Shown here in pieces: positions 24,096-53,107 of a stretch of DNA of 64,000 bases. The stretch is from Carya illinoinensis (Eukaryota; Streptophyta; Magnoliopsida; Fagales; Juglandaceae). The notes under the pieces are model-generated. The model was not told the origin of the DNA. It saw only the letters and a list, made by a program, of their open reading frames with translations, and did no database searches. Both the position numbers and the translations under genes were made by a program. The stretch spans positions 50,128,653 to 50,192,652 of the forward strand of contig NC_056752.1 of NCBI RefSeq assembly GCF_018687715.1. The letters run 5' to 3'. Positions within the stretch are counted from its first letter, which is position 1; the number at the start of each line of letters is the position of its first letter.

Positions 24096-24102
24096 CGTTA
24101 TC

Positions 24103-27376: not shown

Positions 27377-27802
27377 TTACAGAAATTTAAGGCACTTTGC
27401 CTCATTCTTCAAATACTCTTGTTCTTCAAGAATCTGCATGTCATCCCTATCTAAAGCGGTGGGCAATCGAAAAGAAGATTTAAGCAAAGATTTTAAATTC
27501 CTATTCTCTTTCTTTATTGATTCTATCTTCATGTTGGACTCCAGAAGAAGTCGCTGAAGTATAGTAATATTCTCGTGGAGATAGTCAACTCCACAAGTTC
27601 TGGATTGCAGTCGCTGAGAAAATGCGACAATGGATGATGAGTATCGGGTACCGAGACTCACAAGCTCATAGATAGCTTCATTATCTGCCCTATGAGTCAG
27701 ATCATTACATTGCATGATAGCACCTGTGGTAGTAGCAGGTACAGCTGATGAACTAGGTGCAGAGTACCTCATATATTGGCTACGAGAAGATCGCTGAGCC
27801 AT
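27377..27802 (-). CDS. Antisense ORF of element A, 141-aa coiled-coil-like protein
   Basis: An intact frame runs opposite to the retrotransposon. The protein begins MAQRSSRSQYMRYSA and has a conserved core, LGTRYSSSIVAFSQRLQ. A Leu/Ile/Lys/Glu-rich stretch follows that looks like a coiled coil, then SLLKSSFRLP, and the C-terminus is EAKCLKFL. It aligns end to end with the antisense ORF at 52559-52996, about half identical by eye. No known domain, signal peptide or membrane segment is recognised. It lies between the decayed RT part and the RNase H remnant of element A. A TATA box lies 107 bases before the ATG. Expression and function are unknown. Confidence 0.7.
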   Translation of the reverse strand: MAQRSSRSQYMRYSAPSSSAVPATTTGAIMQCNDLTHRADNEAIYELVSLGTRYSSSIVAFSQRLQSRTCGVDYLHENITILQRLLLESNMKIESIKKENRNLKSLLKSSFRLPTALDRDDMQILEEQEYLKNEAKCLKFL

Positions 27803-27902
27803 TGCAGAATAAAAATGCAGAAAGAAATTGCAGAGTAAAATGCAGTATGATTACAGAAAAGTGAAGAAGATGAGATGCGAATGAAAATGAGCTGAATATC
27901 TC

Positions 27903-27909
27903 TTTTATA
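27903..27909 (-). promoter_or_regulatory. TATA box for the antisense ORF of element A
   Basis: TATAAAA in the minus-strand context TTCTCTATAAAAGAGA, 107 bases before the ATG at 27802. The same CTCTATAAAA word stands at almost the same distance in element B. Confidence 0.55.
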
Positions 27910-27964
27910 GAGAAAATTATCTCTCGTGAAGCAAGAGAAAAGAGACGAAATATAGCTTCATAGC

Positions 27965-28065
27965 TCTGCGGCGCCTGACAGCACGCTTGACAGCTGAGGC
28001 ACCTGACAGCACGCCTGATAGCACGTCTGACAGCTGCGGCCCCTGACAACACGCCTGACACCTAC
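27965..28065. repeat. Short imperfect repeats upstream of the antisense ORF
   Basis: About six degenerate copies of CCTGACAGCACGC-type units, GC-rich against an AT-rich background. They lie 55-155 bases upstream of the TATA box of the antisense ORF. No equivalent is seen in element B. Confidence 0.7.
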
Positions 28066-28271
28066 AGAAGAGTTGAAAAAGCCTGCGATGCTTGTCTGAT
28101 CTAAAAAGGCTGGCCACCGTTTTTATGAGGTTAGTGGTTTAATGTTGATGAATTCTCCACTAACTGTATTATTTACAAGAACTCCAGAAGAGTACAACTC
28201 CAGAAGAGTAGTGATGAGCAGAAAGATCCAGTTGTGATTAATTTACCAACATGGATCAAGTCCACAGTTAG

Positions 28272-28493
28272 TTGGATGTACAGATGCGAGTTATCTTTCA
28301 GATACACACAAGAAGATCAATTGAAATTCATGAGAAGAAAGTTGAAATTAATATCAAGAAGGTACGGTCAAGTAAAAATCTGGCAGATTTATTCACTAAA
28401 GCATTACCAACTGCAACATTTAAGAAGATTATGCAGAACATTGGAATGCGGAGGTTTGAAGACATGTTATCATACACTTTTCAGGGGAAGTAA
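28272..28493 (+). pseudogene. C-terminal RNase H fragment of copia pol, element A
   Basis: The frame contains VRSSKNLADLFTKALPTATF and then IGMRRFEDM, the typical end of copia RNase H. The upstream catalytic part is missing; the antisense ORF and its promoter occupy the position where it should be. Confidence 0.85.
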
Positions 28494-28705
28494 TGTCTTG
28501 AAGACTTGTGCTGATTGTACTCTTTTTCCTTCGCTAAGGTTTTATCCCACTGGGTTTTCCTTTGCAAGGTTTTAATGAGGCAATCTTAAAGCACTCGGCG
28601 ATACATATGAATAATGTACTCTTTTTCCTTCGCCATTGGTTTTTTCCCACAGGGTTTTTCCTTGGCAAGGTTTTAACGAGGCATATTCTTTAAATATGGT
28701 CATCC

Positions 28706-28715
28706 AAAGGGGAAG
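28706..28715 (+). promoter_or_regulatory. Polypurine tract of element A
   Basis: AAAGGGGAAG directly abuts the TG of the 3' LTR, the expected place for plus-strand priming. Confidence 0.85.
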
Positions 28716-28927
28716 TGTTATAAACTATCTTGAATTGTATGACCACATTTATCTAGTCGTCAAATGCATAGTGCATAGTGCTAGCATAGTGAGCTAGCAT
28801 AGTCCCCTTTGTACGCCTATATATATCGTTGAATTCTTTAAGAAATATATCTTTTGATAAGAGATCAATAAGTTAACCTCTCTCAATCTCTTGACACTCT
28901 CTCTCCTTTTTATTAAGTTTTACAACA
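28716..28927 (+). repeat. 3' LTR of element A
   Basis: 212 bp, identical to the 5' LTR; followed by the target duplication GAACT. Confidence 0.95.
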
Positions 28928-30714
28928 GAACTCAATTTTTTATAAATAGTAATTAATTGAGTTAATAAAATAAATTATATAAAAATTATTTATAATAAAT
29001 TTATATAGATTTAAATATTAATATAAATTTAATATTATTTATGATAAATTAAAAAATATTATAAGTCTTATGCGTAAAAAAATTTTGAATTAAGATAAAT
29101 TTATTAATTTAAGAATTGACTATTTAAATATTAGATTCAATTTAAAAATAGACTGATCAACTGTAACAACCAAACGATTCCTAAATAGTAAATATCATTT
29201 CTATTAATTTATTAAATGCTGCATATATATCTATATAATATTTGAGGATGTTAATTACTTCATGAATCCATTATTAATATTATACTTTATAATTTATATT
29301 CATCTCATCATGTGGCTTTAACATTTCTGTTATTTTTATTATGATATATACTTCCTCATCTTGGATCAGGCCAATTAATGTGCACATTATGTGTACATAT
29401 ATACTAGGCAATGTTGTGATTAACTTGGAGAATGGCTCTGTTGATAGGTTTATCTAGAATCTTAGATAGATACGTCGCTAATGATTTGGAAACATCTCGG
29501 ACTGGATTACTTCTTCTGGATTGCATCGAGTTTAAATTAGCTTCAGTTTCTTCAATAAAGTTTGCGCCTTTATCTCTTCAACTGACTATTAGACTCGAAA
29601 CATACATAAGACTCTTGTAGACTCTTATTTTATAATATCAACAAGATTTAATCAGAGTTATAGCTCGAACACTTATCCTTATCGGATAACTTCTATACAA
29701 ATACTCATCCTTATCGGATGCAATCCTAGAGTCATATTAAAAATTACATTTATCCATAATTCAAATTTAAATATAAACTCATCTAATCCTAACCAAACAT
29801 AAGTTATATTTACAAGAATTTTTTATACCGAACCACATAAATCTATATGTGTCTTTTAATTAGATTTGATTTATTATTGACTTCCATGAATGAATGCAAG
29901 AGTATTGTATCAACGGCCAAGCCACGATCGTAGGCCATTTATTCGCATTGTTGGGCTCCAGCCATACCAAAAAATGCATCAACATCTACTTTAAGATATT
30001 TATATTTCTATTTAAAAGTAGTGTATTGTGTAGCTAGAAGTACCTAGCCCTTATGCATATACTACGTATAATATGCTCGAAGACTAACTTCTCGCTTCCT
30101 ACTTCCCTTTTGTGATTATTAACTTCAATAGTATATATTGAATAATTGGACTCAAAAAAGATTTATCTATTGTATTTATCTTATGTATTAAACTTTTTTA
30201 TCCATATTTTTAAATTAAAAAAATTTCTAAGTTAATTTATCTATCCAAACTATTTGTTTGAGAAGTTAAAGGAAAATCATCTCCTTTTTTTTTTTTTTTC
30301 AAAAAAACAAAAAAGAAACAAGTTTGAGCTCAAAATATTCTTTAGACAAGCCAAGTTTGAACAAGGATATTCAAGCTGGAGCTGATTTCAAATTACAATA
30401 TATATTTATCTAGTTCGTACAACCTTTTTTATTAGGTTAAAAATCAGCCATATTTTTTAGATCTCTTTTATACTAACATGTGGTCCTTACATATATTATG
30501 ATTTTTGTTTTAGTTTGTTTTAGTTGGATTAATTTTTTTTAATATTCAATCAATCACATCAATGGAGTGCATAAAAGAGTATGCAAAATTGACTGCACAT
30601 AAAATTCTTATTATGAAAGATAGATCATGAAGAGGCGCGCAACTCCTTGGAAAAGATCATATGATCTATATATGATACCTAACAAGTGTTGCATCTTTGA
30701 TGGAATGTGTCAAC
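28928..30714. other. AT-rich spacer
   Basis: No supported gene. The 62-aa frame at 29432-29620 has no recognisable domain. Confidence 0.5.
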
Positions 30715-33700
30715 TGTAACAGCCCGCTAGAAATTTAATTGTGAAATTCCTATTAGCTTTAGGAATCTCGTGAAGACCCCATAAGTTTTCACGAATCGAC
30801 TAATCGCATAGGTTTTAGCCTGTCAACATAGTTAGTGTTATCACTCACTTTAGTGCCAGAAATGCGATTTTAATTATTTGAGATAGTTAGAAGTGTCAGA
30901 ATATATTATAGTCTACACCACTAGGCTTAATTGAATATTTAGGATTTTTCAGTACTAAGTTTATTACGTTTATTTTTGGAGTGAATAGTAACCTCGGTAA
31001 ACGTACTAAGCGCAGTGTTTTCAAAATCACAGTGTGTAATGTCTAAATTAGGTTAGTAAAATTTTATTTGGACACTTGGCAAGATCTTAACCACACATAA
31101 TTAATAGTATTAGATACTTGGCACAAAAAGAAACCATTAGATGGAATTGTGAAGGAAATCAAGGTGTGAGATCATGACACCTAAGCAAAATATTTTTCAT
31201 CTGATCAACCAAATTGAGGCCCACTAAGGCTCACGAATTTGGCCACCCTGGCAAGACTTCTTGGAGAAGTTTCCTCCCCCACTTGTCAGATCATTCATTG
31301 CCACAAGTTGCACTCAATAGTATGGAGGAACCCACCCCATCAAGCACCATGCCCCATAGCTTTTGTCCTTTGACCCCCACTATCCTTCACTTCATGTCAC
31401 ACGTATACCTTCACTCAATGATCATTAAGGTCCAAATAATTCTCCTACAGAAGTCTTGAGTCGTGCAAGACACTTTTACTTCACTTTAATAATTTCTTCA
31501 TCCCATTCTTAGAGAGAAACGCAAAAGAGCTCTCAGATAGATTTATGGGTCTTCTTGCGTGGAGAGTTTCAACTATTTATAAGTATTTTCACACGATGAC
31601 TCCTTCATAAAAGTTGTTCCTCTTTGAGTCTAGTTTCCGTAGATGTATTTTTTGTATCATTCCATGGTCATTTGGTCAGTCAAAAGTATTTTTAACCATA
31701 GAAAGGTCATTCTAGGAGTGAATATGGAGAGTATGTTATGTTTTGGAGTTTCTTAGATCTAGAAACTTGAAAACTGAAAGTGGCAAAACAGTTTTTATTT
31801 AAAGAAAGTTTGAATATTTCGAGGTTTGATCTTACTCTAAAGGCTTTGATATTTTTATATGATGATCCTAAGTCTCTTATTTTCATGTTAGAATGTTATT
31901 TTAGAGATATTTAGTATTAGTTTCAAATATATGATTTTTCTATGCAAGAGGATTTCGGTTAGGCCTAAGATTTGATGTTTTTGGATTAGATCCATGTTTA
32001 TTTTTTTTCTAGCTATGTGATTTTAAGTTTGATGGTTGGATCCTATTTAAGACACATCATTAAACCATGTGATGCTTTATTTCGAAGATCTCACCTTCTT
32101 AAGCCATTGATCAAGAAATTTATCAAAACTAGTTGAGGAAAACGTTTCTGTTTTTAGACTAAGTGTAAAACCAAAAACTTCAAATGTTATTTTATGATTT
32201 TGGTGACTTTAGTTTGATGATTTAAGGCATGGTTGATGTTAGGATGATATTGTGAATATGTTAGAAGTAAGATTTGATTTTTGAAATTCTTGGAGATGTT
32301 TTAATTTAAGGTCAAAACTTGTGATTCAAGTGCTTGGATTTTTTTACAAAAAAGGTTTGGTGTTGATTATTAGTTTTTTCTAAATGGATGTTTTAAGTAT
32401 GGTTTTGAACTTAAGATTGGAAGATGTTTGTTGCAAAACTTTGGTTTAAGCATGAGTTTTGAAATTGGAAGGAATTGCAACAAAAAATTAAGAGAAATGG
32501 CCTATGAATGTTTCGGCCATAGTGTATCTTCCATAGTTGTGATTAGTTTTAAATTTTTCTAAATTGATATATGAATTGAGGATAAAATTTACATGACGCA
32601 TGTAAATTTTGGTGACTTTTGGAGTTAGTATGCAAAATCCTTAAGTTATGGGTAAAACGGTCATTTTCATACATGCAGAGAGTAAAATAGAAATTTTATT
32701 CTTTAACTTAGTATTTTCCATATTTCAATTTATTAGTGATTTAGTGCTAACTTTTAGAATCACTAATTACAGTTCCTCGTGATCGCGCTTAAGGTTTTAT
32801 AAGAAACGCGGAGATCGAGGTAAGTTTAGTTTTTAACTTACTAGCAGTCTATTGTGTATGTGTGCTAAGTAAAAGAACTACAGTGTATGTATGTATGTTA
32901 TCATATATGTCATGCCATGCCAAGTTATTACGTAATTATCTATTATACAGAATTTATTCTGTCATCAATTTTTATCTGTTACATAATATATTCTGTCATG
33001 TATTACTATACATTACAAGTATGTCATGTTAAATATGTTGTATGTTATATGTTATGCCATGTTACGAAATATTTCTATCTCAAGTTGGTCATGTATTTCA
33101 AGTTATGTTCAAGTCACATTATGTTACGTTAGGGCTTCAGTCCTTTCGTATTCCAGTCACATTTCATCTTGATTACTTATGTATGGGGTCACAACAATTG
33201 TGATGCATACACTACGTGAGACATAGCAATTGTGACACGTAGAATATATGGGGCCACAACAACTGTGGAGTGTGTATTTAAGCAGTTAAATAATAAGTTT
33301 CCGTAGAATACATGGGGTCACAACAACTGTGGAATATGTATTTACACGTAGAATACATGGGGCCACAACAACTGTAGAGTATGTATTTTTCATGTTAAGT
33401 CAAGTTTGTGTAGAATATATGGGGTCACAACAACTGCGGAGTATGTATTTACACGTAGAATAATGGGGTCACAACAACTGTGGAGTATGTATTTTTCATG
33501 TTAATTCAAGTTTCAGAGCAAGTTCATGCTAAGTCAAGTTTCAAATCAAGTTCATGTCAAATCAAGTTCAATTCATGTTTCAATCTAAGTTATGTCAATT
33601 ATGCTATGTTGTACGCTAAATTATGCTTTAATTACTTATGAATATGATTATGCATTTATGATTTTACTGTCATCCATGCATCATTAGCTTGTGTGGAAAT

Positions 33701-34186
33701 TTTTTGTTAACTTGCTGAGATTTGTAATCAAATCTCACTGTGGTAGTCCCAACTACCATTCCCCCCGAATGGTAGATCTTGTTACAGGACCTGAAAGAGA
33801 ATCAGGAGCTGACCAACTAGACACAGTTGACTGAGCGACGATGCGACGTCAATGTTAATAAAGTAGTTAACGTAAATTACTACTTGTACGATATAATTGC
33901 ATCTCCAGTACTTTTTGAATCATAATCATTTTGGACTAGTGTTATGATCTTAGTTGTTCAATGAGTCTTTGTATATCAAGTATGTTTTAAGCATTTGGGA
34001 TATTTTCAATTTGGTGCATAGTATTGCTAAAGAAATAATTTATCCGCTGCGAATATTGCATAATGTTATATGCATGTTAAGAACATTGCATCTTATATGT
34101 CATGAAAGGGGACAGGTAATCTTGTGTTACATGTCTCGACGCTTCAAATGTCCGTCTAATCCCAAACGGAATTTGGGGGCGTCACA
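30715..34186 (+). mobile_element. Solo LTR of the long-LTR Ty3/gypsy family, variant form
   Basis: It starts TGTAACAGCCCGCTAGAAAT and ends GGGGGCGTCACA. A perfect 5-bp duplication, TCAAC, flanks it (30710-30714 and 34187-34191), so it is a solo LTR left by recombination between two LTRs. From about 30945 to 31570 its sequence differs completely from the other two copies, while the two sides match well. Confidence 0.92.
33180..33495 (+). repeat. Tandem repeat array inside solo LTR 2
   Basis: About six partly diverged copies of the TAGAATACATGGGGTC/ACAACAACTGTGGAGTATG unit, more degenerate than in the other two LTRs. Confidence 0.75.
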
Positions 34187-36444: not shown

Positions 36445-37724
36445 TCAGTCATCAGATAGTCTTGGAGTGTCTTCCGAATCATGTCCAAATGTGTTAATGT
36501 AAGAGGCTTCAGAGGAGGCTTCTGATTCTAGGTCAGAACTGTCTTCTTTCAGCGATTGTTGGAGTAGGTGAATTAAATCCTTCTTTATTAGTCCCGTAGA
36601 AATATTCTTTTTCTTGGACTTGGAGGATTGAACAGACTTCTGGGAAGAGGAAATAGTTGCTTTCTTCTTTGAAGTGGTCGAACTGGTCGGTGCTTGGATT
36701 AATGGATATTCAGGCGCTGATCGGTCAATAGCAGGGAAATCTTCAGAGTTTTTCAGATTAAGGGTAGTCTGACCAAACTCTTTAGAAATAGTATTGATCA
36801 TGTTTGCCATGTGAGGGAATCTGTCCCACCATTTAACAAAGGCAAACCTATGTAGAATATCACCATTTTTCTCGTAGGACCATTTTAGGATCCATGGAGG
36901 TTTGAATCTTTAACTGAAATGAATGCAGTATGGAAATTTAGTCTCATATGCATCTAACTTTGGAGAGATTGCTTGAATAAAGGATTTGTAGGCCCGTTGG
37001 AGTTCTTCTGGGAAAATGTCCGAAATGAGTCCAAATTGGTGCCACCATTTATTGAACCATAGTGGAATTTTTCCTCTGAAATTCTTATCAAAGTTAAAAA
37101 ACCACGAATGTGACATATCTGGTGTCTGGAAAAGCATGAACCTGAACCAGGCATCAATGCAGTCATAATAATTGTAAGCAATTTCTGAATTCGGAGTTTT
37201 TTGGAAGTAGAGGGGTGTGTACCCCAATCTTCTTCAGTGATGAATCTGAGAATATAAGCACTATGATAAATCAGTTTGGAATCATCTGTTTTATCATAAA
37301 TAGGTTGAATGGTTAAGGAATCAGTGTGGATCAGGATACTGGAATAAAACTGGAGATTTTTGGATGGATTCTCCGGGATCCAATGGAAATTGAGGGGAAA
37401 ATAGCGGGTAGCTATTTTGTAGGGATCTGTGTCTATGGATCGATTGGGTTCAATGTAGAATAGGTCCCAAGAATACATTTTTTTGATATATTGGGTTTTT
37501 GAAGCAGGGAGGAATAATTGAGTAGGCCTTGCTGTTGCTGAAGCAATAGGTTTGGCATATGGATCATATGAAGCTGAAACAGTTGAAGCAAAAGAAGCAG
37601 GTTTTGATATACTACCCAAGGTAGTAAATCGGTTGGCAATTTCCACAGGAGGTGCCGGTTTGGTTGAAACAGGTAGTGGTGGGGCGGGGACAATTTGTTT
37701 TCCTTTATCTCGTTTTTTGCTCAT
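36445..37724 (-). pseudogene. Viral ORF2, unknown function, broken
   Basis: The start ATG overlaps the ORF1 stop as ATGA (37721-37724). The frame is open to near 37225, then shifts by one frame, continues to a stop at 36910-36912 and resumes in that frame to 36445. The N-terminal part is rich in Pro, Ala and Ser; the C-terminal part is Ser/Lys/Glu-rich. No known domain is recognised. Position matches the second ORF reported for florendoviruses, a match made from memory. Confidence 0.7.
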
Positions 37725-38944
37725 GGTTGCTGCAAGAATTTACAAGTAAGGAAATCAGGAATAGAGTTATCAGAACCTTTAATATACTCAATATCAAAGT
37801 CAAAAACACTTAAAATAGCTTGCCATCTGACGAAAATATGTTTAGATGCAATGTTTTGAACATCTTGTTCTAATACATATTTAGCACTCATGCAATCAAT
37901 GCGTAACATGAATTTTTTGTTTAATAAATCACTTTGGAATTTTGATATGCATAATACTATAGCAAGTATTTCCTTCTTAATAGTGTTATAATTATGATGT
38001 GCAGGGTTCCAGACTCCAGAATGGAAACGAACAATTTGCTCAGAAGAGTCTGGTGAAACTTTTTGTTTCAGAATGCCGCCATAACCTATGTCTAAGGCAT
38101 CTGTTTCCACAATTTTGAAGGAATCAGGAGTAGGAATACCAAGGCATGGAAGAGTTTTGACATATGTCTTGATCTGCTTAATAAGATTGGTATGAATATC
38201 TGTCCAAACAGGATGATTAGTATGCAGACGATCAAACAATGGTTTACATTGTTTTCTCATATTTTGATAGAATTCAGCAACATAATTGAGGGAACCAAGG
38301 AATCTTTGTAATTGATTTTTATCAGTGATGACATCAGGAAATTTGTCAGCAAATTTTATAACCCGATTGATGGGTCTAATTTTACTTTCTGAAATATCAT
38401 AACCAAGGAAACGAATCTTGGTCTGGAACAGATTGATTTTCTTTGCAGAAACAACAAGACCATTTATTCTGATGATATCAAGAAACGTTTGCAAATGTTT
38501 CCAGTGTTCATCAATGGATTTGGAGAATATAAGAACATCATCAATGTAAACAATGGTAAAATGGGTGAAGGCATTGAAAATGTCATTCATGATATTTTGG
38601 AATTCACTAGGGGCATTTTTGAGGCCAAAGGGCATTACGTTCCACTCATAATGACCAAGGGGAGTAGTGAATGCAGTTTTGTATCTATCTGACTCACAGA
38701 TCTGGATTTGCCAAAATCCTGACTTAAGGTCGAATTTGGAAAAGACTACTGCATCACTTAATCTCTGTATTAAGTCATTTTTATTAGAGATGGGATACCT
38801 GATCCACTCTAAGATTTTGTTCAAAGGTTTGTAATTCATAACTAGACGAGGAGTACCTCTTTCTATTTCAGCATTTTTTTGGATATAGAAAGCAGCACAA
38901 GACCATGGAGACTTACTAGGTCTAATAATGTTTTTAGCAAGCAA
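37721..38944 (-). pseudogene. Viral reverse transcriptase-RNase H segment
   Basis: A 407-residue open stretch. It has the caulimovirid RT motifs KFDLKSGFWQI, the MPFGLKNAPSEFQ block and the YIDD active site near 38537-38548. The RNase H part follows, with the first Asp in ETDALD. This segment is uninterrupted, but the upstream protease-capsid frame leading into it carries several stops. The stop overlaps the ORF2 start. Confidence 0.92.
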
Positions 38945-38956
38945 ATTTTTGATTTC

Positions 38957-39600
38957 TTATTTACAGAATTCTAAAGTTTCACTATTCATCTAAATAGGGA
39001 GAGCTTTAGTGGGAATGTTTTTCTCAGAGAAATCCTTAACATAAGGAAGGGAAACAACATATTTTTTCCTATGCCAAAAAGCATTGGGGAGATCATAACA
39101 AATATCAGAGATTAATCTTTGATTAAAATCAGCAATTTTTGATTGGAGCAAAGAATTAGACAAATGTTCAGAGATCTTTTTGTATTTGATTTCCTGTAGA
39201 AGGGAATTCAAATGTTGGGTTTTTGCCAAAAGCAAGGATTTCAAGCTTTTGTCAGTGTCGATTTCAAATTTTATAGTGAAAGTAAATTTCACTTTCTGTC
39301 CAAAAGGATCAGTAATGATACCATCTTTGTCAGAAATAAAAGGATATAAAGCAGAGATAAAAGGGATTCCTAATATGACTTTATCAGACATATTTCAGAC
39401 TAAAACAGAAGGGATTTTGAAGCAAACATTATCTTGGCAAACATGAGCATTGCTTAACTCATAATTAATCTTCATCTTAGATCCATTTGCCGCAGATAGC
39501 TTTTCAGTAGATTTTTCATAATATCTACTGGGAACTAATCCTTATTGGATACAATTCATATCCGATCTGGAATCAATCATAGCAATAACAGAGAATTTGA
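38957..39600 (-). pseudogene. Viral aspartic protease region, broken
   Basis: It lies in the same frame as the RT and before it. Near 39560-39580 the active-site triplet reads Asp-Ser-Arg where Asp-Ser/Thr-Gly is expected, so the key Gly is lost. Further along, VILGIPF and then LYPF are typical of retroviral-type protease flaps and ends. In-frame stops lie at 39542, 39395, 38990 and 38957. Confidence 0.7.
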
Positions 39601-39838
39601 AATCATGAGCAATGATAATGTTAACACGTGAAAACCATTTGGGGGGAATGGAATGGTGAATTAAAGCAATCTGATTTTCTGAATATTTCTCTTCAGTTTT
39701 TTCAAAACTAGAAGGCTGCTCATCATCAGAAGGGATGTTATGATCAAACTGTTTATCAATTTTAACACATAAAAGCTCTTGCTGTAAAGCAGAGTTTGAA
39801 TCTTTGAATTTATTGACCTCAGTCTTGAGTTCAATAAT

Positions 39839-41548
39839 CTATTTTTTGATTAGATTTACTTCATTTTGTAAATCTTGGGTGGAAACTTCTTTAGGTTTTT
39901 TCTTCTAAAACATTTCTAAAATTTCTTGAAAATTGATCATTTTTTTAGGAGGCTCTGACTCAGGATGAGTCAGTGTCTTCTTGAGCTTAAGAAGGTATTC
40001 TTATTTAAGCTCTGGATCCTGAATTTGTGAAATCATAGTTAATAAAAGATTTTCTTGTTCTTCACCTTTGGATAAAATATTAATTGTTTTTCCTGTAGGT
40101 TTGCAACAAGAGTCAGTGCAGTTACAACCAAGCTTAATAATGGGAGAATCAGAAGATTCAGTTTCTGAGTGATATTCTGAATCACTAGAACTGAATTCAC
40201 TCATGTCAGAGGAAGAAGCTTTCATTTCCATGAGTTAGAATAATTCTTCTTGATCAATGACACTAATATTTAACGCATTAATCTTATTTTTGAATTTGTT
40301 AGGTTTCTGGGTACATTTATCAGCAAAATGTCCATTCTTCCCACAATTAAAACATTTTCCTTTTGAAGCATTTTGGAAATTCTTCTTTTTAGGAAAGGAT
40401 TTCTTGTTAGGTGATTTTTTGTAAAAATCATCACGGGGTTTTCTCCTGTAACCACCACGAGGTTTGGAAAACTGTTTAAACTATTTGGTCTTTCGTCTAG
40501 AAGGAGCAATAGGAGAAAGTAGACGAAGGAGCAATAGGAGAAAGGCCATACTGTTCACAAAATGTTCCCATTTTGTACTTGGCTTTCTTACTATTTTTCA
40601 ATTGTTGACGAAGCATACGTTGATCATTGCACATACTAATACTCAGCTTCTTAATTACGCTAAAAATATCACCATAAGTGAAATTATCATAATTAAGAAA
40701 CCCTGAGGTATCAGTGAGTTCATCCTTGACTTTGAGAGCAAAAAGATGAGGTAAACCATCGATGAATTTTTCCTTCCAGTAAGACTTCTGACTGTCGTCC
40801 CGAAGCATTACTCTGGAGGTAAAAACATCTTGAAACCATCTGTAATCCGACATTTGACGGCATCGCAGATTATTTAAATAATCAGAAACACGATTTGTAA
40901 TATTAGAAGAAGTACTAATAAAGTGCTTAATAATAGTATAGATTAAGGTATTAACACCATCAAAAGGAGTAGAGTTAATAGAGGGATCAAAAACAGGAAG
41001 TCCATTGTCATCTTTTTTGACGGCATGTTGGATTGCTTCTCTGGTCTCCGGAAAAGGTGTTTATCCCACCAATTACGGATCATTCCAGTAAAACCAGTGG
41101 TTAAGATAACAACAATATCAGGTTCTCTAATATTATTATTAATGTAAGCATTTGCAACTAAAGACATTTTACTCATGGTATTTAGTATTTCTTGTTCAGA
41201 CATACCATCAATATTCCATTCGTAAGTTTTATCAGCGGAATAAGAAGATTGAGATTGAAAGATTTTTTCTTCGAATTGTAAATCAGGGGGTGTAGGTTTT
41301 GAATACCAGTTTCTTGTAAAACTCATTAGATTGGGTTTGGATTCAAGACCAGCAAGTTTGAAATCATCTTGGTGAAAATTCTTTTCGAGTAAATCAATGT
41401 TTCGAACAGTTGAGGAGTCACTTTCAGATGAGTCTGCGTCAGTAGTTTGAACAAAACCATATTCTTCTTCTTTGTTAGTTAAAGCACTAGTTGAAGGTTT
41501 TTCAGGTTTACTAGAGGAAGGTTTTTCAATCTTGATATTTTTTAGCAT
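39839..41548 (-). pseudogene. Viral capsid region with CCHC zinc knuckle, broken
   Basis: Residues like a caulimovirid coat protein occur at 40497-41548 (MSKMSLVANAYI, WWDKHLF, YWKEKFIDGLP). A CX2CX4HX4C knuckle is encoded at 40313-40354. An acidic, Ser-rich segment at 40001-40231 follows. The region shifts frame near 41050 and near 40500, where a short tandem duplication is seen, and has in-frame stops at 40235, 40001, 39905 and 39839. Confidence 0.75.
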
Positions 41549-41591
41549 TTGATTAATTTGATCAAGAGTTTTGGTTTGTTTTGTTATGTGA

Positions 41592-43355
41592 TCAAAGATT
41601 GGCCTTTTTTTCTGGTAAAATAATCAAAGGTTTGTTAGCAGACTGAGAAACAGGTGTTGAAGATTGGATAGAAATTGGATTTTCTATCTTTTCTTCTATC
41701 CTATCCAGTTGTTGTCCTATGGTTTGGAGATAAGTATTAGAAAAATTATTCTGTTGGATAATTTTCTTTGTTTCGGACAAAACTGTGTTAATTTCTTGAT
41801 TATTAGACTCAGTATTGGGTGCTTTAAAAGGTGAAACGGTTAAATCAACACCTAAATGAGAAATAACAATTGCCTCTGAAGGAGGATGGCTGGACTTAAC
41901 AGTAGTCCTTCCTTCTTCCTTAACAAAATCAGTTTTTAAAACATTCAAACTATTTTTTGAAACATAATAATTTTCAAGGAAATCAAAGAAAAGAATATGT
42001 TTTTGTTCGGTGTTCATCTTTTCTTTCCATTTACGTTTAACACGTGATTTTTCGAAATTAGAAAAAGTCGCATGATAAGTTTTTCTCTTATCACGGTTTT
42101 CTTTTGAATTGTAATCTTTGAACAGAGAAATTAAATCTATTTCAAAATAATTTCTGTTAATGACATTAAGCTGACTAGGTAAAGGAGCAATGGAAGCAGC
42201 CATATCTGAAGCTGTAGGAGACAAAGTTGAAGTATCTTCATCATCCTTGTTAGCTTCTTCCTTTATGGATTTGCCTTTAGATGTTTCAACATCTTTGGCT
42301 GAATAAAAGGCAGAGGTAATTTGAGAGGACGTAGAAAGCCCTTTCATTTTTAAATTAGAATTATTTAAAACAGGTTGAGCAGCTTTTGCAGAATCCTTAA
42401 GAAAGATATTGAGATTTTGATCTTTTCTTTCACAGTCTTCTGCTGCAGGATTAAAAGAAGATCTAGATCCAGCAAAAGAGTTTCTTCTGAAACTTGTAGC
42501 TGGAGTTGGATCAAAGCTAATTTTAACAGTACCATCTAAATATTGTTGAATATAATCAAGATCAGGTTTGGCAAATAAGATGGGAGCAGGTGGAACTTCT
42601 TGGTTTAGGATCCATTCATTAGAAAGAGAAATATATTTCCAATGAATCATTGTTGGAACCTTTACGTTGGCATCAGGGGTAGAACTTTGGATTAACAAAG
42701 TTTTTCCTCCTGTAGATTTCAAAACAGTTTTGGGATTTAAAGTTGATTTTAAAACCCTGTAATAGATTCGGTAAATAACAGCAAGGGGTTTGCTTCCTTT
42801 GATCATATCATAACTAGAGGTAGCAATGTTTAAAGTTAAAACTTTTAGAATATTTGGATTATTCAAAGCAAGTGGTAAATCAGGAAAGCAATCAAAGTAA
42901 ACAGGACCATTGAACAAAGAAGATTGAATCATACCAAGAATGCTAGTTTCAAACTGATTATGTCTAGCATCTCTTAAGCATAGAAGAATAGAAGCATTAA
43001 TTCCTAATCTTGTTAATGGTTTAACAGCGATCTGAACGGATCCAATATGAAGAAACTTATAACCTTTTGACAAGAATTCCTATATGGATTTCTTAGTGAA
43101 AAGATAATATTTTTCTTGAACATTGGAGACTTCACAAGTTTGTTCAACAATTTTAACTTTGAATTCTGAATTAAAACTGAGATTAGACTTAAACCAACTT
43201 GTTTGATAAATAGAACTGGGTTGAATACGTGGAATCGTCCATTGATTCCAGTTAACAGAAGGATCAGTTTCTTTAACTGAGAAATCTTCCTCATTAATGA
43301 TATCAGGGGGTTCAATCCTAGAACTAGAACTAATAGTTGAATTAGATCTATACAT
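41592..43355 (-). pseudogene. Viral movement protein region (30K-like), broken
   Basis: The ORF1 N-terminal part begins at the ATG at 43355. An in-frame TAG at 43080-43082 splits it; the same frame then stays open for 493 codons to 41592. The central part, with LTRLGINASILLCLRDARH and a YFDCFPDL segment, fits the caulimovirid movement protein. The C-terminal half is Ser/Thr/Lys-rich. A frameshift in an A/T run near 41605 separates it from the capsid region. Confidence 0.75.
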
Positions 43356-45169: not shown

Positions 45170-45305
45170 ATGATATTTATAATTATAGAATATGTAAGCG
45201 TCATGTATATTTAAAAAAGTAAAAAATATTAAATTTATATAAAAAAACTAATTTATTAATAATAAATCATACTATTTTTTAAAATAAATACACAATCCAT
45301 AACTA
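45170..45305. repeat. MITE-like element, family 2
   Basis: It opens GATATTTATAATTATAGAATA and includes GTAAGCGTCATGTATATTTA, then AAATTTATATAAAAAAACTA, the same word order as the block at 22727. Confidence 0.4.
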
Positions 45306-45383
45306 AAAAGCAGAAAATCAAATATCTATTATGAGATGGAGAGAGTAATTCTTAATTGATTTTCATGTGCTTGATCGTTGGGT

Positions 45384-45580
45384 AGGTTTGGAAATCTAAA
45401 ATTCTCATTTTAAATTCAAAATTCTCATCTTATCATTACACATTTTTCAAATTCTCATATAAAATATAATAAATAATTTAACTTTTCTAAATTTCAATAT
45501 ACCTTTTTCAAATCTCAATACAATAATATTATTAAAATTAATATTTTAAATTTTCATCTCTACTTCTAAACCTCTCCAGC
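45384..45580. repeat. MITE-like element, family 1
   Basis: It opens TAGGTTTGGAAATCTAAAAT and closes TCATCTCTACTTCTAAACCT. It shares ATATAAAATATAATAAATAA with the copy at 44103. Confidence 0.55.
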
Positions 45581-46378: not shown

Positions 46379-47671
46379 TGTTGAATCTAAAGTTTTAAGT
46401 TTTATGTGATTATAAATCTACACATAAATTTTGATGATAACAAATGAATTCAAAGAATAAAAGAGTTTCAAGCTCAAGTTGTTCACACAATGGAATCAAG
46501 CACATCAAAAAACTAAGCATGAGCAAGAAGGAAATAAGTTCACATTAAAGTCACAGAGTAATGTTGTAAATCTTTTAAAATTCGAAATTAGGATTAATGC
46601 TCAAAATTAATATTTTATCATAAAGCATTAAAATACATTTTCCACATGTGCATGAATATTTTTGAAAATTTTGAAAGATGATTGATTGTCATCTTTTGCA
46701 TGTGCATGCTTTGATTAAATGGTTGAACTTTGAAAATATTAAAGATGATTGATTGTCATCAATCATCTTTCACATGTGCATGTTTTATTTGAATATTTTC
46801 AAAAGTGATTGATGCTTTTTGAAAAGGAAAGTGTGCTCATTTTGTCATATGCTAAAAGTAAAAGATTAGGTTTGATTTTTTTTGGAAAAATGAATGATGT
46901 TGTTTTTGACAATTGAAAAAGAAGAACTTTTTATTTGAATTCTTTGAAAAAGTGAATGATGTTGTCTTTGACAATTGAAAAAGAATAACCTTTTATTTGA
47001 ATTTTTTGAAAAAGTGAATGATGTTGTCTTTGACATGTGAATCTTTTTAAATTTGAATATGAAGTCTCATATGCCTATAAATAGATCATTTGAGAGCTTC
47101 ACATTCACAACACCAAGAGCATACAACATTCATTCAAAACTTTCATTCTCTCTTCTCTAAGCATTGAGCATTAATCCTTATTCATTTTGAGAGATATCGT
47201 TTGCACTGTATTGTTCTTATTTCACTCATTGAGGAGTGTTTTCTGATAACCTACCCATTATCAGCTTTTGTATCAGAAAAAGGGTGTGTATAACCCTTGT
47301 GTGTGTAGAAAGTATTCTACACGGGGAATAGTTGAATCACTACGTGTAAGGTGATTGCAAGTGTAGAGGGTGTTCTACACGGATCCTTTGTAGCGGTGTT
47401 GTTCAAAGGTGTAATAGGTTTCTATCTCCACCTGAAAGAGGTTGAATAGTGAATTTGGGAATCCTCAAGGGGTAGCTTGAAGAGAGGACGTAGGCAGTGG
47501 GGCCGAACCTCGTTAACATACTGAGTTTGCTTCTCTCTTACCCTTACTCTTTATATTTATTGTTATTTCATATTTTGTTTATATTTTATATTATATATTT
47601 GATTTATAATTGTTATTGTTTTTAATACAACTCAATTCACCCCCCCTCTTGTGTTAGTCATTTGGGCAACA
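46379..47671 (+). repeat. 5' LTR of element B
   Basis: 1293 bp. It contains about three tandem units of roughly 62 bp at 46890-47040 (GAATGATGTTGT then TTTGACAATTGAAAAAGAA), and a TATA-like CTATAAATAGATC near 47076. Confidence 0.93.
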
Positions 47672-47673
47672 AT

Positions 47674-47685
47674 TGGTATCAGAAC
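47674..47685 (+). promoter_or_regulatory. Primer-binding site of element B
   Basis: TGGTATCAGAAC, three bases after the LTR, matches initiator tRNA-Met with one mismatch. Confidence 0.85.
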
Positions 47686-47730
47686 TAAGAGCTCTATTAT
47701 AAGATTAACTATCTTTTGAGTTAAGATCTT

Positions 47731-49320
47731 ATGGCTAACATTGTAACTTCATTTGGTGAAGGTCAATCTAGTAGTCGGCCTCCACTCTTTTGTAGAGATA
47801 ATTACTCATTCTGGAAAGTTAGAATGAGAATATTTCTTCAAGCTCAAGGAAGAGAAATCTGGAAATGTATTGTAAATGGACTTTATATTCCAACAAAAGT
47901 GGTTGATGGAGTAAAGGTCAAAAGGGAAGAAGAAGAGTTTGATCGTGAAGACGATAGACTTTATACTTTAAATTTAACTGCTATGAATTTATTATATAAT
48001 GCTCTTAATGGAAATGAGTTTAATAGAATAATGAATTGCGCTACGGTAAAGGAAATTTGGGATAACTTGGAAGTAACTTATGAAGGAACTTCGCAAGTCA
48101 AGGAATCAAAAATTTATATTCTTACTCATGAATATGAAATGTTTAAGATGAATGATGATGAATCTATTTCTAGTATGCACACTCGTTTTACTAATATCAT
48201 AAACAGCTTGACAGCTCTTGGCAAAGTTTATTCCAAGGTGGAGATAGTAAGAAAAATTCTCAACTCTTTACCAAAACGTTGGGAATCAAAAGTTACAGCG
48301 ATTCTTGAAGCTAGAGACCTCAAGAAGCTCGAAGTCAATGAACTCATCGGGTCACTTATCACCCATGAGTACACATTGAAAAGAGGAGAAGAATAATGAA
48401 AGCCAAAGAAGAGCTTAACACTTAAAGCTGTTCCTCATGAAAGTGAAAGTGATGAAGATGAGGAAAATGACGATAAAAGTGAAGAAGTTGCGATGATAAC
48501 AAGAAGAATTCAGAGGTTCTTGAAGAAAAATAGAACTCCTCCGAGGAAATCTTTGAAAAAGTTTTCCAAGAAAGATTCAGGTAAAAATGACACTTTAATT
48601 TGTTATAAATGCAATAAACCTGGTCATATCAAGCCAGATTGTCCTCTGCTAAAGAAAGATCGAAACAAGGGCAAGAAAGCAATGAAAACTACATGGGATG
48701 ATGATTCAAGTAGCTCAGATAGTGAAGCAAGCAATGAAGAATCAGCAAATCTTTGTCTTATGGCTAAAGATGACATTGAGGTAACAAATCTTGATAATAT
48801 TGAAAATCCTTCATACGAAGAATTGCAAAATGTTTTAGAAGAGATTTATAAGGAATTTGAAAAATTGGGTATCAAGTATACTGCTTTGAAAAAAAAATTC
48901 TTCTTTAATAAACGAAATTGAAATTTTAAGAAAAGAAAGTATCATTTTGAAAGATAAAAATTTTGAATTGAATAAGAAGAAAACCGATTTAGAAAATATT
49001 GTTGAAAACTTTACGAATGGAAAAAGAAATTTTGAAAAACTTCTTGGTAGTCAAAGATGTGTTTTTGACAAGGCAGGATTGGGATATATGCCAAAAAAAA
49101 ATACAAACCTTATAAAAATTTCTTTGATAATCATTCTACATCAAAGACTAATATTCAAAATACTTTTCATAAAAATAATTTTGTCAAAAAAGGATATTAT
49201 TATAATCATTCAAGTTTTTTATATATGTCACATGCTATTTGTAATTTTTGTAATAGAAATGGTCATAATTATCATACTTGTCCTATTAGAAGAAATCATG
49301 CAATGACTATTAAGGCCATT
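47731..49320 (+). pseudogene. Gag region of element B, broken
   Basis: The gag starts at ATG 47731 with a copia gag domain (FWKVRMRIFLQAQG, then a WDNLEVTYEG segment). An in-frame TAA at 48394 interrupts it. The same frame then encodes a knuckle, CYKCNKPGHIKPDC, at about 48601-48642, and an acidic stretch. Shifts occur in A runs near 48890 and near 49093. A second Cys/His motif (CNFCNRNGHNYHTC) lies near 49240-49281. The product would normally package RNA. Confidence 0.85.
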
Positions 49321-49420
49321 TAGGTACCTAAAAATCTTATTTCTTCTAATACTAATAAATAAAGGACCCAAAGAATTTGGGTACCAAGAAATATCATTTT
49401 AATTGTTTTTATAGGTATGT

Positions 49421-52400
49421 ATGAAGTCATCCACAAGCAAAAATAAGTGGTTTTTAGATAGTGGATGTTCAAGACACATGACGAGAGACAAGACTAAATT
49501 CTTTGATCTTAGATCTAAAGAAGAAGGACACGTGACATTTGGAGACAACTCGAAAGAGAAGATCGTGGGAATAAGTAAAATTGGTAATGAATCTTCTCTC
49601 ATAATTGAAGATGTTCTACTTGTTGAAGGTTTAAAACATAATCTTTTGAGCATAAGTCAATTATGTGATAAAAGATTTACACTTACTTTCAAAATGGATA
49701 AATGCATTATTTTGAATGATCATGATTGTAATATTTGTTTTATTGCTTTTAGAAACAATAATGTTTATACAATCGATTTTGAAGAAATTACCTCACAAGA
49801 TGCTATTTGCTTTTCAATTCAAAATGAAACTAGTTGGCTATGGCATAAAAGATTAGGTCATGCCAATATGGAACTTATTTCCAAACCTTCAAAAAATGAT
49901 CTTGTGAGAGGTTTACCAAAAATAAATTTTCTTAAAGACAAAATTTGTGATGCATGTCGATTTGGTAAACAAACAAAAACTTCTTTTAAAACTAAGAAAC
50001 ATATTTCCACTATTAGACCATTACAACTGATACACACGGATCTTTTTGGACCAAATAGAGTTGCAAGTCTAGGAGGAAAATATTATGCATTTGTTATTGT
50101 TGATGATTTCTCTAGATATACTTGGGTCATCTTTCTTACTCATAAAGATGAGGCACATAATGCTTTTACCAATCTATGTAAGAGAATTCAAAATGAAAAG
50201 GGCTATACTATTTCAAGTATCCGAAGTGATAGGGGAAAAGAGTTTGTTAATAAAAATATTGAAACATTTTGTGATGAAAACGGTTTTGTGCATAATTTTT
50301 CTGCTCCTCGAACTCCTCAACAAAATGGGGTAGTAGAGAGGAAAAATAGATCTCTTCAAGAGATGGCAAGAACAATGCTCAATGAGAACAACTTGCCTAG
50401 TTATTTTTGGGCCGAAGCGGTAAGTACTGCATGTTATGTTATAAATAGAGTTATGCTAAGGTCTAAGTTAGATAAAACCCCCTATGAGCTTTGGAATGAA
50501 AAAAAGCCCAACATTGGTTACTTTCATATATTTGGATGCAAATGTTTTATTTTGAATGACATGGATAATTTAGACAAGTTTGATGCAAAATCTGATGAAG
50601 GTATCTTTCTCGGGTATTCTACTAATAATAAAGCTTATAGAGTATTCAATAAAAAGACTTTGACTGTACAAAAATCTATGCATGTAGTATTTGATGAATC
50701 TAATTCTCCACTCTCCAAGAAATCTATTGATGAAGAAACAGGAGGTATAAATAACACAGAAAATCTCAATCTCAATAAAGAGAAAACAATAGAGGAAGTT
50801 CAACATAGAGCCATCAGGAAAGATCATCAAAATTTAATACAAGATGCAACCAAACAGTGAAAATTTGTGAAAGATCATCCAGTGGAACAAATTTTGGGAG
50901 AACCTTCACAAGGTGTAAGTACTCGATCATCTCTTAGAAATATTTGCAATCATACTGCTTTTCTATCTCAAATTGAACCCAAAAATATTGATGACGCACT
51001 TCTTGATGAATCTTGGATTCTAACTATGCAAGAAGAGTTGAATCAATTTGAAAGAAATGATGTTTAGACACTTGTTCCTAGACCCAAAAATCATACTATT
51101 ATTGGAACAAAATGGGTTTTTAGAAACAAGAAAGATGAGTCCGGAGTCATTACTAGAAATAAGGCTCGACTTGTAGCCCAAGGTTTTAATCAAGAATAAG
51201 GAATCGATTATGATGAGACATATGCACCTGTCGCAAGATTAGAAGCTATTCGAATGTTACTTGCATATGCTTGTTATAAAGATTTCAAACTTTTTCAAAT
51301 GGATGTTAAAAGTGATTTCTTAAATGGTTTTATAAATGAAGAAGTATATGTTGAGCAACCTCCAGGTTTTGAAAATCATATTTCCCCAAATCATGTTTTC
51401 AAACTCACAAAAGCACTATATGGACTCAAACAAGCTCCTAGAGTTTGGTACGAGAGACTCAGTGGTTTCTTGATTGAAAAAGGTTTTTCAAGAGGAAAAA
51501 TCGACACAACTATTTTCATTAAATATGAAAATGATGATATTCTTTTGATTCAGATTTATGTTGATGATATAATATTCGGTGCTACTAATGAAAATATGTG
51601 TCAAGTTTTTGCTAAGACTATGCAGGAAGAATTTGAGATGAGCATGATAGGAGAATTTACATTCTTTCTCGGATTACAAATTAAGCAAGCAAAAAGTGGG
51701 GCATTCATCAATCAATCAAAATATATTAAGGAATTACTGAAGAAATTTGGGATGGAAAATGCTAAGGAAATTGGAACACCAATGAGCCCATCAACTAAAC
51801 TTGATAAAGATGAATCCGGTAAGTCAGTTGACTCGAAGATATATCGAGGTATGATTGGTAGCTTATTATATTTAACAGCCAATAGACCAGATATTATGTT
51901 TAGTGTGTGCTTATGTGCACGCTTTCAATCATCTCCAAAAGAATCATATTTAATTGCAGTTAAGCTCATTTTTAGATATCTTAGTGGTACAATTAACCTA
52001 GGGTTATGGTACCCTAAGCACACATCTTTCGATCTAATCAGTTACACAGATGCAGATTATGCTGGCTGTAAAATAGATCGAAAAAGCACTAGTGGAGCAT
52101 GTCATTTCTTAGGTCATGCACTAGTTTCTTGGTTTAGTAAAAAATAAAATTCTGTGGCACTATCTACTGCTGAGGCAGAATATGTTGCTGCGGGTAGTTG
52201 TTGTGCTCAAGTTCTCTATATGAAGCAACAACTTGAAGATTTTAAACTCATGTATAATCACATTTCAATCAAATGTGATAATACAAGTGCTATAAATCTT
52301 TCAAAGAATCCAATACAACATTCTAGAACTAAGCATATTGAAATAAGGTATCATTTTCTTCGAGATCATGTGCAAAAAGGCGATATAATATTAGAGTTCA

Positions 52401-52510
52401 CAAACACACACGATCAGTTAGCAGATATTTTCACAAAACCTTTACCAGAAGATAGATTATGTATGATCAGAAGAGAAATAGGTATGATGCATGCTATGAA
52501 TATATCTTAA
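49421..52510 (+). pseudogene. Pol region of element B: protease, integrase, RT, RNase H
   Basis: One reading frame is interrupted by four in-frame stops: TGA 50858, TAG 51065, TAA 51197 and TAA 52145. The protease site DSGCSRHMT is at the start. The pre-integrase motif LWHKRLGHANME follows, then integrase with HTDLFGP, SIRSDRGKEF and PQQNGVVERKNR. RT holds MDVKSDFLNG, then YVDDIIFG. RNase H holds STAEAEYVAA, then LADIFTKPL. No frameshift is needed across this 3.1 kb, so decay here is by substitution only. Confidence 0.93.
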
Positions 52511-52558
52511 AAGATAGATCAGAGTCAATAAAAATAGAGATAGATTTTTTAAATACTT

Positions 52559-52996
52559 TTACATAAACTTGAGATTCTTAGCCTCATGTTTGAGACGCTC
52601 ATTCTCTTCATACAATATCATGTCATTCTTATCCATGGGAACCGGCAAGCAGAATGAAGAATTTAATAAAGATTTCAACTGTTTATTCTTCTGCCGAATG
52701 ATTCCTTCCCTTATGTGAGACTCTTGAACAATTCGTTGAAGTACAACAATTTGTTGTTTGAGCTTTTCAACTTCGTGATTTTTGGCTTGTAGCCGCTGAG
52801 AAAAAACAACAATAGAGGAAGAGTAGCGAGTCCCAAAACTCACCAAGTCATAAATAGCATCAGAATCTGACTTATTAGTCAGATTATTATTTTCTTGTTG
52901 CAACATGGCACCAATGACAGCTGCAGAAAGAACAGGAGGTTGAGATGCAGAATGCCTCATGGATGGATATAGAGAAATGTTAGAAGAATGAGCCAT
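52559..52996 (-). CDS. Antisense ORF of element B, 145-aa coiled-coil-like protein
   Basis: The frame is open upstream to 53143, but the start at 52996 (MAHSSNISLYPSMRHSA) aligns with the start of the ORF in element A. The core is FGTRYSSSIVVFSQRLQAKN. A Leu/Lys/Gln-rich coiled-coil-like stretch follows, then SLLNSSFCLPVPMDKNDM and the C-terminus EAKNLKFM. It has no stops or shifts although pol has four stops. Its stop lies 48 bases from the pol stop, tail to tail. A TATA box is 111 bases before the ATG. No known domain is recognised; the product and its role are unknown. Confidence 0.7.
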   Translation of the reverse strand: MAHSSNISLYPSMRHSASQPPVLSAAVIGAMLQQENNNLTNKSDSDAIYDLVSFGTRYSSSIVVFSQRLQAKNHEVEKLKQQIVVLQRIVQESHIREGIIRQKNKQLKSLLNSSFCLPVPMDKNDMILYEENERLKHEAKNLKFM

Positions 52997-53100
52997 TGAG
53001 AAAAGAATAGAAGGCTTAAAACGAGAATGTTGAAGGAATGCAGATAAGTTATAGAGATGAGAAGAAAACTTGATACGGATTGGATGAACTTCAGGACTGA

Positions 53101-53107
53101 TTTTATA
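53101..53107 (-). promoter_or_regulatory. TATA box for the antisense ORF of element B
   Basis: TATAAAA in the minus-strand context TATCTCTATAAAATCAG, at nearly the same distance from the ATG as in element A. Confidence 0.55.

Follow-up and report, generated by a model that had tools for sequence, protein, structure and literature searches.

A short antisense gene family with its own TATA box in two lineages of Copia elements of Carya illinoinensis

Grande and RIRE2 are Gypsy elements. Together with Retand and PvRetro13, which are described as Gypsy elements as well, they carry the antisense genes of plant LTR elements known as the aORF-3R or eORF-3'R class, a class that includes gene23 of Grande and in which some PvRetro13-type ORFs have an SMC match, the PvRetro13 protein being 631 aa long (PMC7264820, PMC11963269, PMC4093653, PMC6317226). 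One review credits gene23 with a promoter of its own and a protein found in the nucleus, and in its account no function is known for the antisense genes of plant retrotransposons (PMC7264820). Extra genes have been reported for Copia elements too. A 2019 survey, which counted extra ORFs only if they had at least 250 codons, gives 582 Copia elements with ORFs of that length, a count not split by orientation here, and a sense eORF is reported in 74% of SIRE members.

Two further systems are worth comparing. VANDAL elements are DNA transposons, and the HBZ protein of HTLV-1 has a leucine zipper. VANC of VANDAL resembles the proteins described below—by description, not by sequence—in being an element-borne accessory protein with tandem repeats close by in some copies, and differs from them in that its function has been tested (PMC5735166). 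HBZ, also compared by description only, is likewise an antisense accessory protein (PMC11963269), but the antisense promoter of HTLV lies in the 3' LTR (PMC7264820), whereas the TATA box of the ORFs reported here is internal.

We analysed a window of 64,000 nucleotides from the genome of Carya illinoinensis, in which two Copia elements each hold one antisense ORF, hereafter aORF (Table 1). The aORF, which runs antisense to gag-pol and has its own TATA box, is best read as an accessory gene of Copia elements. It sits 3' of RNase H in element-2-type copies and amid RT–RNase H remains in element-1-type copies. As in the aORF-3R class, the aORF of element 2 lies antisense between pol and the 3' LTR, and most members of a family carry the gene (27 of the 28 element-1-type elements picked by their LTRs). 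Unlike in that class, the aORF of element 1 sits amid pol remains, the proteins measure only about 141–148 aa and have no Pfam match, the hosts are Copia elements, and the gene is common to two Copia lineages. The class itself is known; what is new here is a short antisense ORF with a predicted coiled coil in two Copia lineages, and this suggests that further short antisense genes fell under the length cut-offs of surveys. Short, carried by high-copy Copia elements, conserved in its TATA box and showing signs of passage between lineages, the aORF family also makes a compact test case for the roles of antisense genes.

Table 1. Features of the two host elements and their antisense ORFs, in window coordinates.
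Feature	Position	Strand	Description	Basis
Element 1, Copia-type LTR element	23884..28927	+	5044 bp, TSD GAACT	
Element 1 LTRs	23884-24095 and 28716-28927	+	identical to each other	
Element 1 primer site	24097..24116	+	16/20 nt match to tRNA-Ile(AAT)	
Control antisense frame, element 1	26118..26558	-	146 aa, over pol remnants; codon positions vary alike in other copies	
Element 1 RT remnant, left of aORF	26935..27015	+	RT match	
Element 1 aORF	27377..27802	-	141 aa, antisense to host element	ORF list, alignment
TATA box CTCTATAAAA, element 1 aORF	27903..27912	-	starts 110 nt before A of ATG	
Short tandem repeat	27972..28060	-	unit CGCCTGACAGCA read on +; upstream of element 1 TATA box	
C-terminal remnant of element 1 RNase H, to the right of the aORF	28329..28448	+	RNase H match	
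Element 2, Copia element	46379..54915	+	8537 bp, TSD TGAAC	
Element 2 LTRs	46379-47671 and 53567-54915	+	K2P 0.035 between them	
Element 2 gag-pol	47731..52510	+	gag, CCHC, integrase, RVT_2, RNase H region; stops and frame changes	
Element 2 aORF	52559..52996	-	145 aa, antisense to host element, flanked by pol and the 3' LTR	ORF list, alignment
TATA box CTCTATAAAA, element 2 aORF	53101..53110	-	starts 114 nt before A of ATG	

The two aORF proteins align end to end with 51% identity (72 identical residues), and each gene lies antisense in a Copia element bounded by LTRs and 5-bp target duplications, which bears out the initial annotation on both counts, since it had judged the ORFs to be homologous along their full length, about half identical, and antisense to their host retroelements. 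Element 2 is assigned to Copia by its RVT_2 match, and the ORF list holds no sense ORF of at least 100 aa 3' of its pol. In element 1, pol is ruined and a usable RT is absent; the aORF is flanked by RT and RNase H remains and is not 3' of pol. The resemblance of the pair is more than chance. When sequences were simulated 1000 times under neutrality to the divergence seen in the pair, only 10 runs remained stop-free, and among 300 stop-avoiding neutral simulations none had second-position changes as few as 31 and none had identical residues as many as 72; for the window pair, this speaks against frames that are open only by chance, a possibility raised at the outset. It had also been argued that the ORFs are open while the sense pol is broken. 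Pol is indeed broken in both elements, but this is weak evidence and largely a length effect, because at element-2-like loci the aORF is intact in 13/19, RNase H (118 aa) in 11/18 and RT (297 aa) in 5/18, and because another antisense frame, 146 aa long, is open in element 1 (the control frame in Table 1).

The genome searched, of 674 Mb, holds many copies of the aORF. It is antisense in 12 of 12 LTR-paired element-1-type copies, eleven of which come from the typed part of 150 aORF places, and at element-2-like loci it is antisense and 3' of RNase H, with RT and RNase H adjoining 18 of the 19. A candidate aORF-free partner, L062, proved to carry the gene too. At least 10 of 40 element-2-like RT places (element 2 itself included) match an antisense aORF among the best 150 aORF matches, and all five pol-picked element-2-like places that were fetched have an intact one, these places being one recent burst without statistical power. 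Stops are absent from 26 of the 58 places picked by protein match, while a third clade consists of three copies only, all with stops in the aORF. Five places (L001, L042, L039, L055 and L058) were dropped as duplicates of window elements 1 and 2, L002, L011 and L015, and L083, with no aORF within the stretch fetched, was dropped before the counts.

At E ≤ 5e-25 the last profile search listed 25 database proteins, a number that counts the query members, and about half of the 25 are full length; family proteins are basic. Structure prediction places a helix at residues 44–114, with pLDDT >90 over residues 51–110 by block, and together with a coiled-coil prediction this agrees with the coiled-coil protein proposed by the initial annotation, the long predicted helix being suited to such a fold. 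For both proteins nothing in Pfam scored above cut-off, including Transposase_28 and the plant mobile domain. Searching solved structures by sequence returned a single row (E 0.28), Foldseek found no structural relative in the PDB, and no aORF relatives were found in phage records or in two scans of viral contigs.

The same word, CTCTATAAAA, precedes both window aORFs, and the TATA itself lies 107 nt (element 1) and 111 nt (element 2) before the ATG, as first noticed. Within 200 nt upstream, CTCTATAAA occurs in 32/36 element-1-like, 18/19 element-2-like and 1/3 third-clade copies (L062 excluded), against 11/2900 mononucleotide shuffles. TATA-box words rank among the best shared upstream words, between subfamilies as well, and are conserved above the median upstream word. 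The recurrence of the antisense orientation and of the TATA box across many copies supports the view that gene and TATA box are antisense cargo of different Copia lineages. Besides the TATA word, the upstream DNA of the two window copies shows no alignment beyond chance (32/200 shuffles score as high); for their downstream DNA, 6/200 shuffles score as high as the real alignment. The repeat motif CGCCTGACAGCA is present, in variable repeat number, in some element-1-like copies and is absent upstream in 19/19 element-2-like and 3/3 third-clade copies. Because the motif is confined to part of the element-1-like copies, the upstream repeat was ruled out as a common target site.

Relations among aORFs conflict with those among pol genes. 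Pol pieces of element-1-type copies are 30–41% identical to those of element 2, leaving out L003, whose right-hand RT match starts at residue 49 and may belong to another element; the RT matches left of element-1-type aORFs are individually weak (E 0.004–0.02). L017 is a near relative of element 2 by RNase H (72–75% identical), and its aORF is 49% identical to that of element 2 and 57% to that of element 1. L010, with RT 61–72% and RNase H 46% identical to element 2, has an aORF 52% identical to that of element 2 and 51% to that of element 1. This equal similarity of aORFs across distant and near pol argues that the gene has probably been exchanged between Copia lineages.

The proposal that the gene is kept by selection fared differently in different samples. 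The window copies differ at 53/31/64 sites by codon position, with a bootstrap dN/dS of 0.25–0.67. Shared-variant sites in element-2-like copies number 17/7/23 in the aORF, 21/12/32 in RT and 4/5/10 in RNase H. In element-1-like copies, variants shared at three copies fall at 53/34/55 in the aORF versus 48/55/51 in the control frame, and those shared at two copies at 68/50/65 versus 77/73/76. Protein-picked places gave 202/159/222 for 19 disjoint pairs of element-1-like and third-clade copies and 26/19/41 for 9 element-2-like pairs; compared with the control frame, protein-picked loci differ at Fisher p 9.7e-5. However, both samples were mostly chosen by protein match, which biases them toward low replacement rates, and since such samples favor conserved proteins the test was redone on the 28 element-1-type elements chosen by LTR and not by ORF. 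In 27 LTR-picked copies codon bias was not detected (27/30/31; shared-variant sites 8/9/8), aORF dN/dS was 0.72, and stops occurred in 6/27; the control frame gave 29/40/47 and a dN/dS of 0.53, lower than that of the aORF. Gaps were found in 0/27 of these aORFs versus a control frame intact in 6/26, a contrast weakened by shared ancestry. The signal is gone from this sample, and the view that every family maintains the gene by selection at present is not supported. The claim of selection rests on the deep comparison and on variants that several copies have in common: judged from codon patterns, the deep comparison and the protein-picked element-2-like copies show purifying selection, and the element-1-like copies show it weakly. 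Conservation of the aORF likewise resembles that of RT in the protein-picked element-2-like sample, but not in the LTR-picked element-1 copies. The aORF of element 2 has five private residues, four of them at otherwise invariant or nearly invariant sites.

On balance, we think it rather probable that the aORF is a Copia accessory family with its own TATA box, an antisense mRNA and a self-assembling coiled-coil protein serving Copia elements in trans. Transcription by RNA polymerase II from the TATA box would yield a short antisense mRNA, and the protein would self-assemble and act in trans for Copia elements, its target most likely being the element's chromatin or its RNA or particle, rather than the host. 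Because the product can come from other copies, the aORF of non-autonomous element-1-type lineages would be under weak or no current selection, like the lost pol. Exchange may have proceeded by recombination between co-packaged genomic RNAs, a route consistent with the gene being antisense in each of the two hosts. The flat codon profile and the stops in LTR-picked element-1 copies would also be expected if the aORF were a passenger, an old leftover ORF that is open since the copies are young and whose protein is unused; the decay-like aORF of element 2, with its private residues and LTR divergence, and an intact fraction near that of RNase H, point the same way. We regard this as unlikely, although it carries some weight: it is opposed by the deep comparison, whose constraint no neutral simulation reached, by the shared variants of element-2-like copies, by the family proteins that are full length and, subject to shared ancestry, by the ungapped LTR-picked aORFs.

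Retention of the aORF after RT loss in nearly all LTR-picked element-1-type elements, and a motif that some copies hold, in variable repeat number, ahead of the TATA box, recall a VANC-like selfish protein acting in cis, which would lift the silencing of its own element; undetected codon constraint in those same elements and the missing motif in the 19 element-2-like and three third-clade copies make this quite doubtful. We give slightly more credence, though still little, to a mobile, promoter-bearing coiled-coil module that hops between lineages, always antisense, can enter pol and favors its carriers, for example by lifting silencing; if so, a non-autonomous family would spread with the aORF as its sole long-kept gene. 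That the antisense RNA is the product, regulating the sense transcript or feeding siRNA while the frame is secondary, would suit the conservation of the TATA words, and dsRNA regulation is among the topics discussed for such ORFs (Vicient and Casacuberta 2020). This appears improbable in view of the codon-position pattern and of a protein conserved end to end while the upstream DNA of the subfamilies does not align. Two gene models of the family are annotated as hypothetical proteins of Carya illinoinensis, as might befit a gene captured from the host and now serving or manipulating it, but high copy number, the RT and RNase H beside 18 of the 19 element-2-like loci, the near-constant presence in LTR-picked elements and the lack of a related Pfam family or solved structure render this most improbable.

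As to the host lineage of element 1, a half-tRNA-Ile primer site is the mark of the Bianca lineage of Copia (PMC6317226), and element 1, which has no usable RT, carries such a site. The site matches the reverse complement of nt 22–41 of this genome's tRNA-Ile(AAT) at 16 of 20 nt, with one of the mismatches at the first base of the anticodon, where a half-tRNA-Ile primer with inosine would be expected to give one.

In the small antisense ORF (aORF) carried by two Copia elements in the window, both the frame and a TATA word are conserved, the orientation is antisense and the relations are at odds with those of pol. The two frames (see the table) lie where the initial annotation placed them. Their proteins are 51% identical on end-to-end alignment, and CTCTATAAAA starts 110 nt (element 1) or 114 nt (element 2) 5' of the ATG. 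Across the genome, CTCTATAAA lies at most 200 nt from the ATG in 32/36 copies resembling element 1 (el1-like), 18/19 resembling element 2 (el2-like) and 1/3 of a third clade (L009, L010 and L017), against a background of 11/2900 mononucleotide shuffles. TATA-box words rank among the most shared 9-mers in both large families, taken separately; across the two, the element 1 TATA words are the top shared 9-mers (19-21/22), the median word being unshared.

Features of the window
Feature	Position	Strand	Description
Element 1 (Copia-type)	23884-28927	+	two identical 212-bp LTRs; TSD GAACT
Primer site	24097-24116		after 5' LTR
Control frame	26118-26558	-	146 aa, over pol remnants
RT remnant	26935-27015		E 5e-4
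Element 1 aORF	27377-27802	-	141 aa
Short tandem repeat	27972-28060		upstream of TATA box
Sense ORF	28234-28575		overlaps RNase H tail in different frame
RNase H tail	28329-28448		E 6e-5
Pararetrovirus fragments	36445-43315	-	caulimovirid-type, endogenous
Element 2 (Copia)	46379-54915	+	gag and pol on +; LTRs 1293 and 1349 bp; TSD TGAAC
Element 2 aORF	52559-52996	-	145 aa
Third Copia element	57833-59594	-	RT and RNase H frames
Long repeat, three copies	17891-21099, 31750-34186, 59596-62892	+	75-91% identical in pieces; internal tandem repeats

The genome (674,387,116 bp, 17 contigs) was searched with the aORF proteins, keeping the best 150 of 4511-4604 unverified first-look candidates per search, and with host sequences. 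The element 1 LTR gave 40 matches forming 12 LTR pairs of 5.0-5.9 kb, of which 11 hold an aORF from a subset of the best-150 list, antisense each time, and the twelfth has one too, also antisense; a listed aORF lies near 13/16 unpaired matches, always antisense. Once fetched, 27/28 LTR-picked copies have an aORF (L083 has none in the fetched stretch), 21/27 being full length without stop or gap. The element 2 RT gave 40 scored matches (element 2 counted) among 1785 candidates, mostly from one recent burst with 97-98% identity; an aORF from the best-150 list sits at the expected offset in 10/40, and it is intact in 5/5 places fetched. Three series of regularly spaced aORF copies (G000:C1:15282936-15306896, 4 units 7842 bp apart; C11:10623660-10648298, 5 units 6057 bp apart; C11:28784438-28796526, 3 units 5839 bp apart) are probably head-to-tail arrays of LTR elements.

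The two hosts are distinct. Element 2 (LTR pair 92% identical by BLAST, K2P 0.035) has several stops in gag and pol, with matches to RVT_2, integrase and CCHC, and its aORF lies 48 bp past the RNase H frame, ahead of the 3' LTR. In element 1 no gag or pol frame survives and only one sense ORF reaches at least 100 aa. At 16/20 nt, its primer site agrees with tRNA-Ile(AAT) nt 22-41 of the same genome, read as the reverse complement, and a mismatch on the first anticodon base fits the edited half tRNA-Ile that marks Bianca elements (Neumann et al. 2019, PMC6317226). Its RT and RNase H remnants lie on either side of the aORF (best E in ten shuffled controls, 0.03). Among 36 el1-like loci, RT matches left of the aORF (8 loci; weak, E 0.004-0.02) all fall within element-2 RT residue 73 or the corresponding stretch of the third Copia element, and on the right RT or RNase H is matched in 18, the matches to element-2 RT starting no earlier than residue 151 outside L003. 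The aORF thus most likely sits inside RT in the element-1 family. The motif repeated in tandem before the TATA box in element 1 occurs 0-5 times, in a single orientation, in el1-like upstream stretches and is absent from el2-like ones.

Had the aORF descended with pol alone, the copies in elements 1 and 2 should be far more diverged than the pair in element 2 and L017. The third clade has pol related to element 2 (identity to element 2: L017 RNase H 72-75%, L010 RT 61-72%, L010 RNase H 46%), whereas identity to it is 30-41% for pol pieces of element-1 type (L003 excluded). However, third-clade aORFs are 49-54% identical to that of element 2 and 51-57% to that of element 1; in the same codon alignment, identity between the element 1 and element 2 aORFs is 48%. 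The position of the aORF within its host differs as well. The simplest reading of these comparisons, made on local matches to three decayed third-clade copies and without an RT lineage tree, is that the aORF was exchanged between Copia lineages.

Whether the frame may be kept by selection, as the initial annotation proposed, depends on the comparison. The window pair differs at 53/31/64 sites at codon positions 1/2/3 (NG86 dN/dS bootstrap range, 0.25-0.67); 0/300 neutral simulations avoiding stops were as low at position 2, and 10/1000 neutral simulations remained open. Sites at which at least two of 19 el2-like copies share a variant number 17/7/23 (in 18 of these loci, RT 21/12/32 and RNase H 4/5/10). 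For 59 el1-like copies, requiring three copies to share a variant gives 53/34/55 and requiring two gives 68/50/65, against 48/55/51 and 77/73/76 for the control frame (49 loci). However, constraint was not detected in the 27 LTR-picked element-1 copies, in which the count over 13 disjoint pairs is 27/30/31 (dN/dS 0.72) and that of shared-variant sites 8/9/8; the control frame of LTR-picked elements gives 29/40/47 (dN/dS 0.53) and 13/20/17. Because the signal is gone there, the earlier positive tests on loci picked by protein do not count as independent evidence, a weakness that the el2-like sample shares. The aORF has gaps in 0/27 LTR-picked copies and the control frame is intact in 6/26, a contrast weakened by the shared ancestry of the copies. 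A fair reading is that the aORF has been under long-term constraint, which is probable in el2-like lineages, weak in el1-like ones and undetected in the LTR-picked element-1 group.

The coiled coil anticipated for the protein agrees with an AlphaFold2 model (15 sequences; mean pLDDT 79, pTM 0.38), which predicts helices at 25-40, 44-114 and 123-143, with blocks 51-110 above 90; in both proteins (pI 8.8 and 9.3), 74% of the a/d positions are hydrophobic when the best heptad register is used. No relative was found in Pfam, PDB sequences or PDB folds. The last profile search listed 25 proteins, about half full length and most from unlabelled short ENA contigs; two database relatives carry the name Carya illinoinensis. 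Two family members labelled Streptomyces (P0021 and P0027, contigs of 1013 and 673 bp) are probably plant DNA within bacterial assemblies. We propose that an antisense mRNA would be made from the aORF and that its product, a putative self-associating coiled-coil protein, may serve Copia elements in trans through chromatin or RNP, which would explain relaxed constraint in non-autonomous element-1 lineages. The orientation shared by the two hosts would fit a move of the aORF by template switching between genomic RNAs while they were being reverse-transcribed.

Antisense ORFs between pol and the 3' LTR have been reviewed for Grande, RIRE2, Retand and PvRetro13 (Vicient and Casacuberta 2020, PMC7264820), and bean has an antisense ORF2 in 15 Gypsy families (Gao et al. 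2014, PMC4093653). In the same account, the extra ORFs of bean's two Copia families that have one are sense and envelope-like. An extra ORF of at least 250 codons, the only size class counted, was present in 582 Copia elements and 3372 Gypsy elements (Neumann et al. 2019, PMC6317226). No description of this aORF family was found in the literature covered (titles and abstract starts, with few subscription papers).

Elsewhere in the window, the pararetrovirus fragments match movement protein, RT with RNase H, and DUF7588/DUF7746. The third copy of the long repeat starts beside the RT frame of another Copia element. The third Copia element is 28-46% identical to element 2 in matched pieces.
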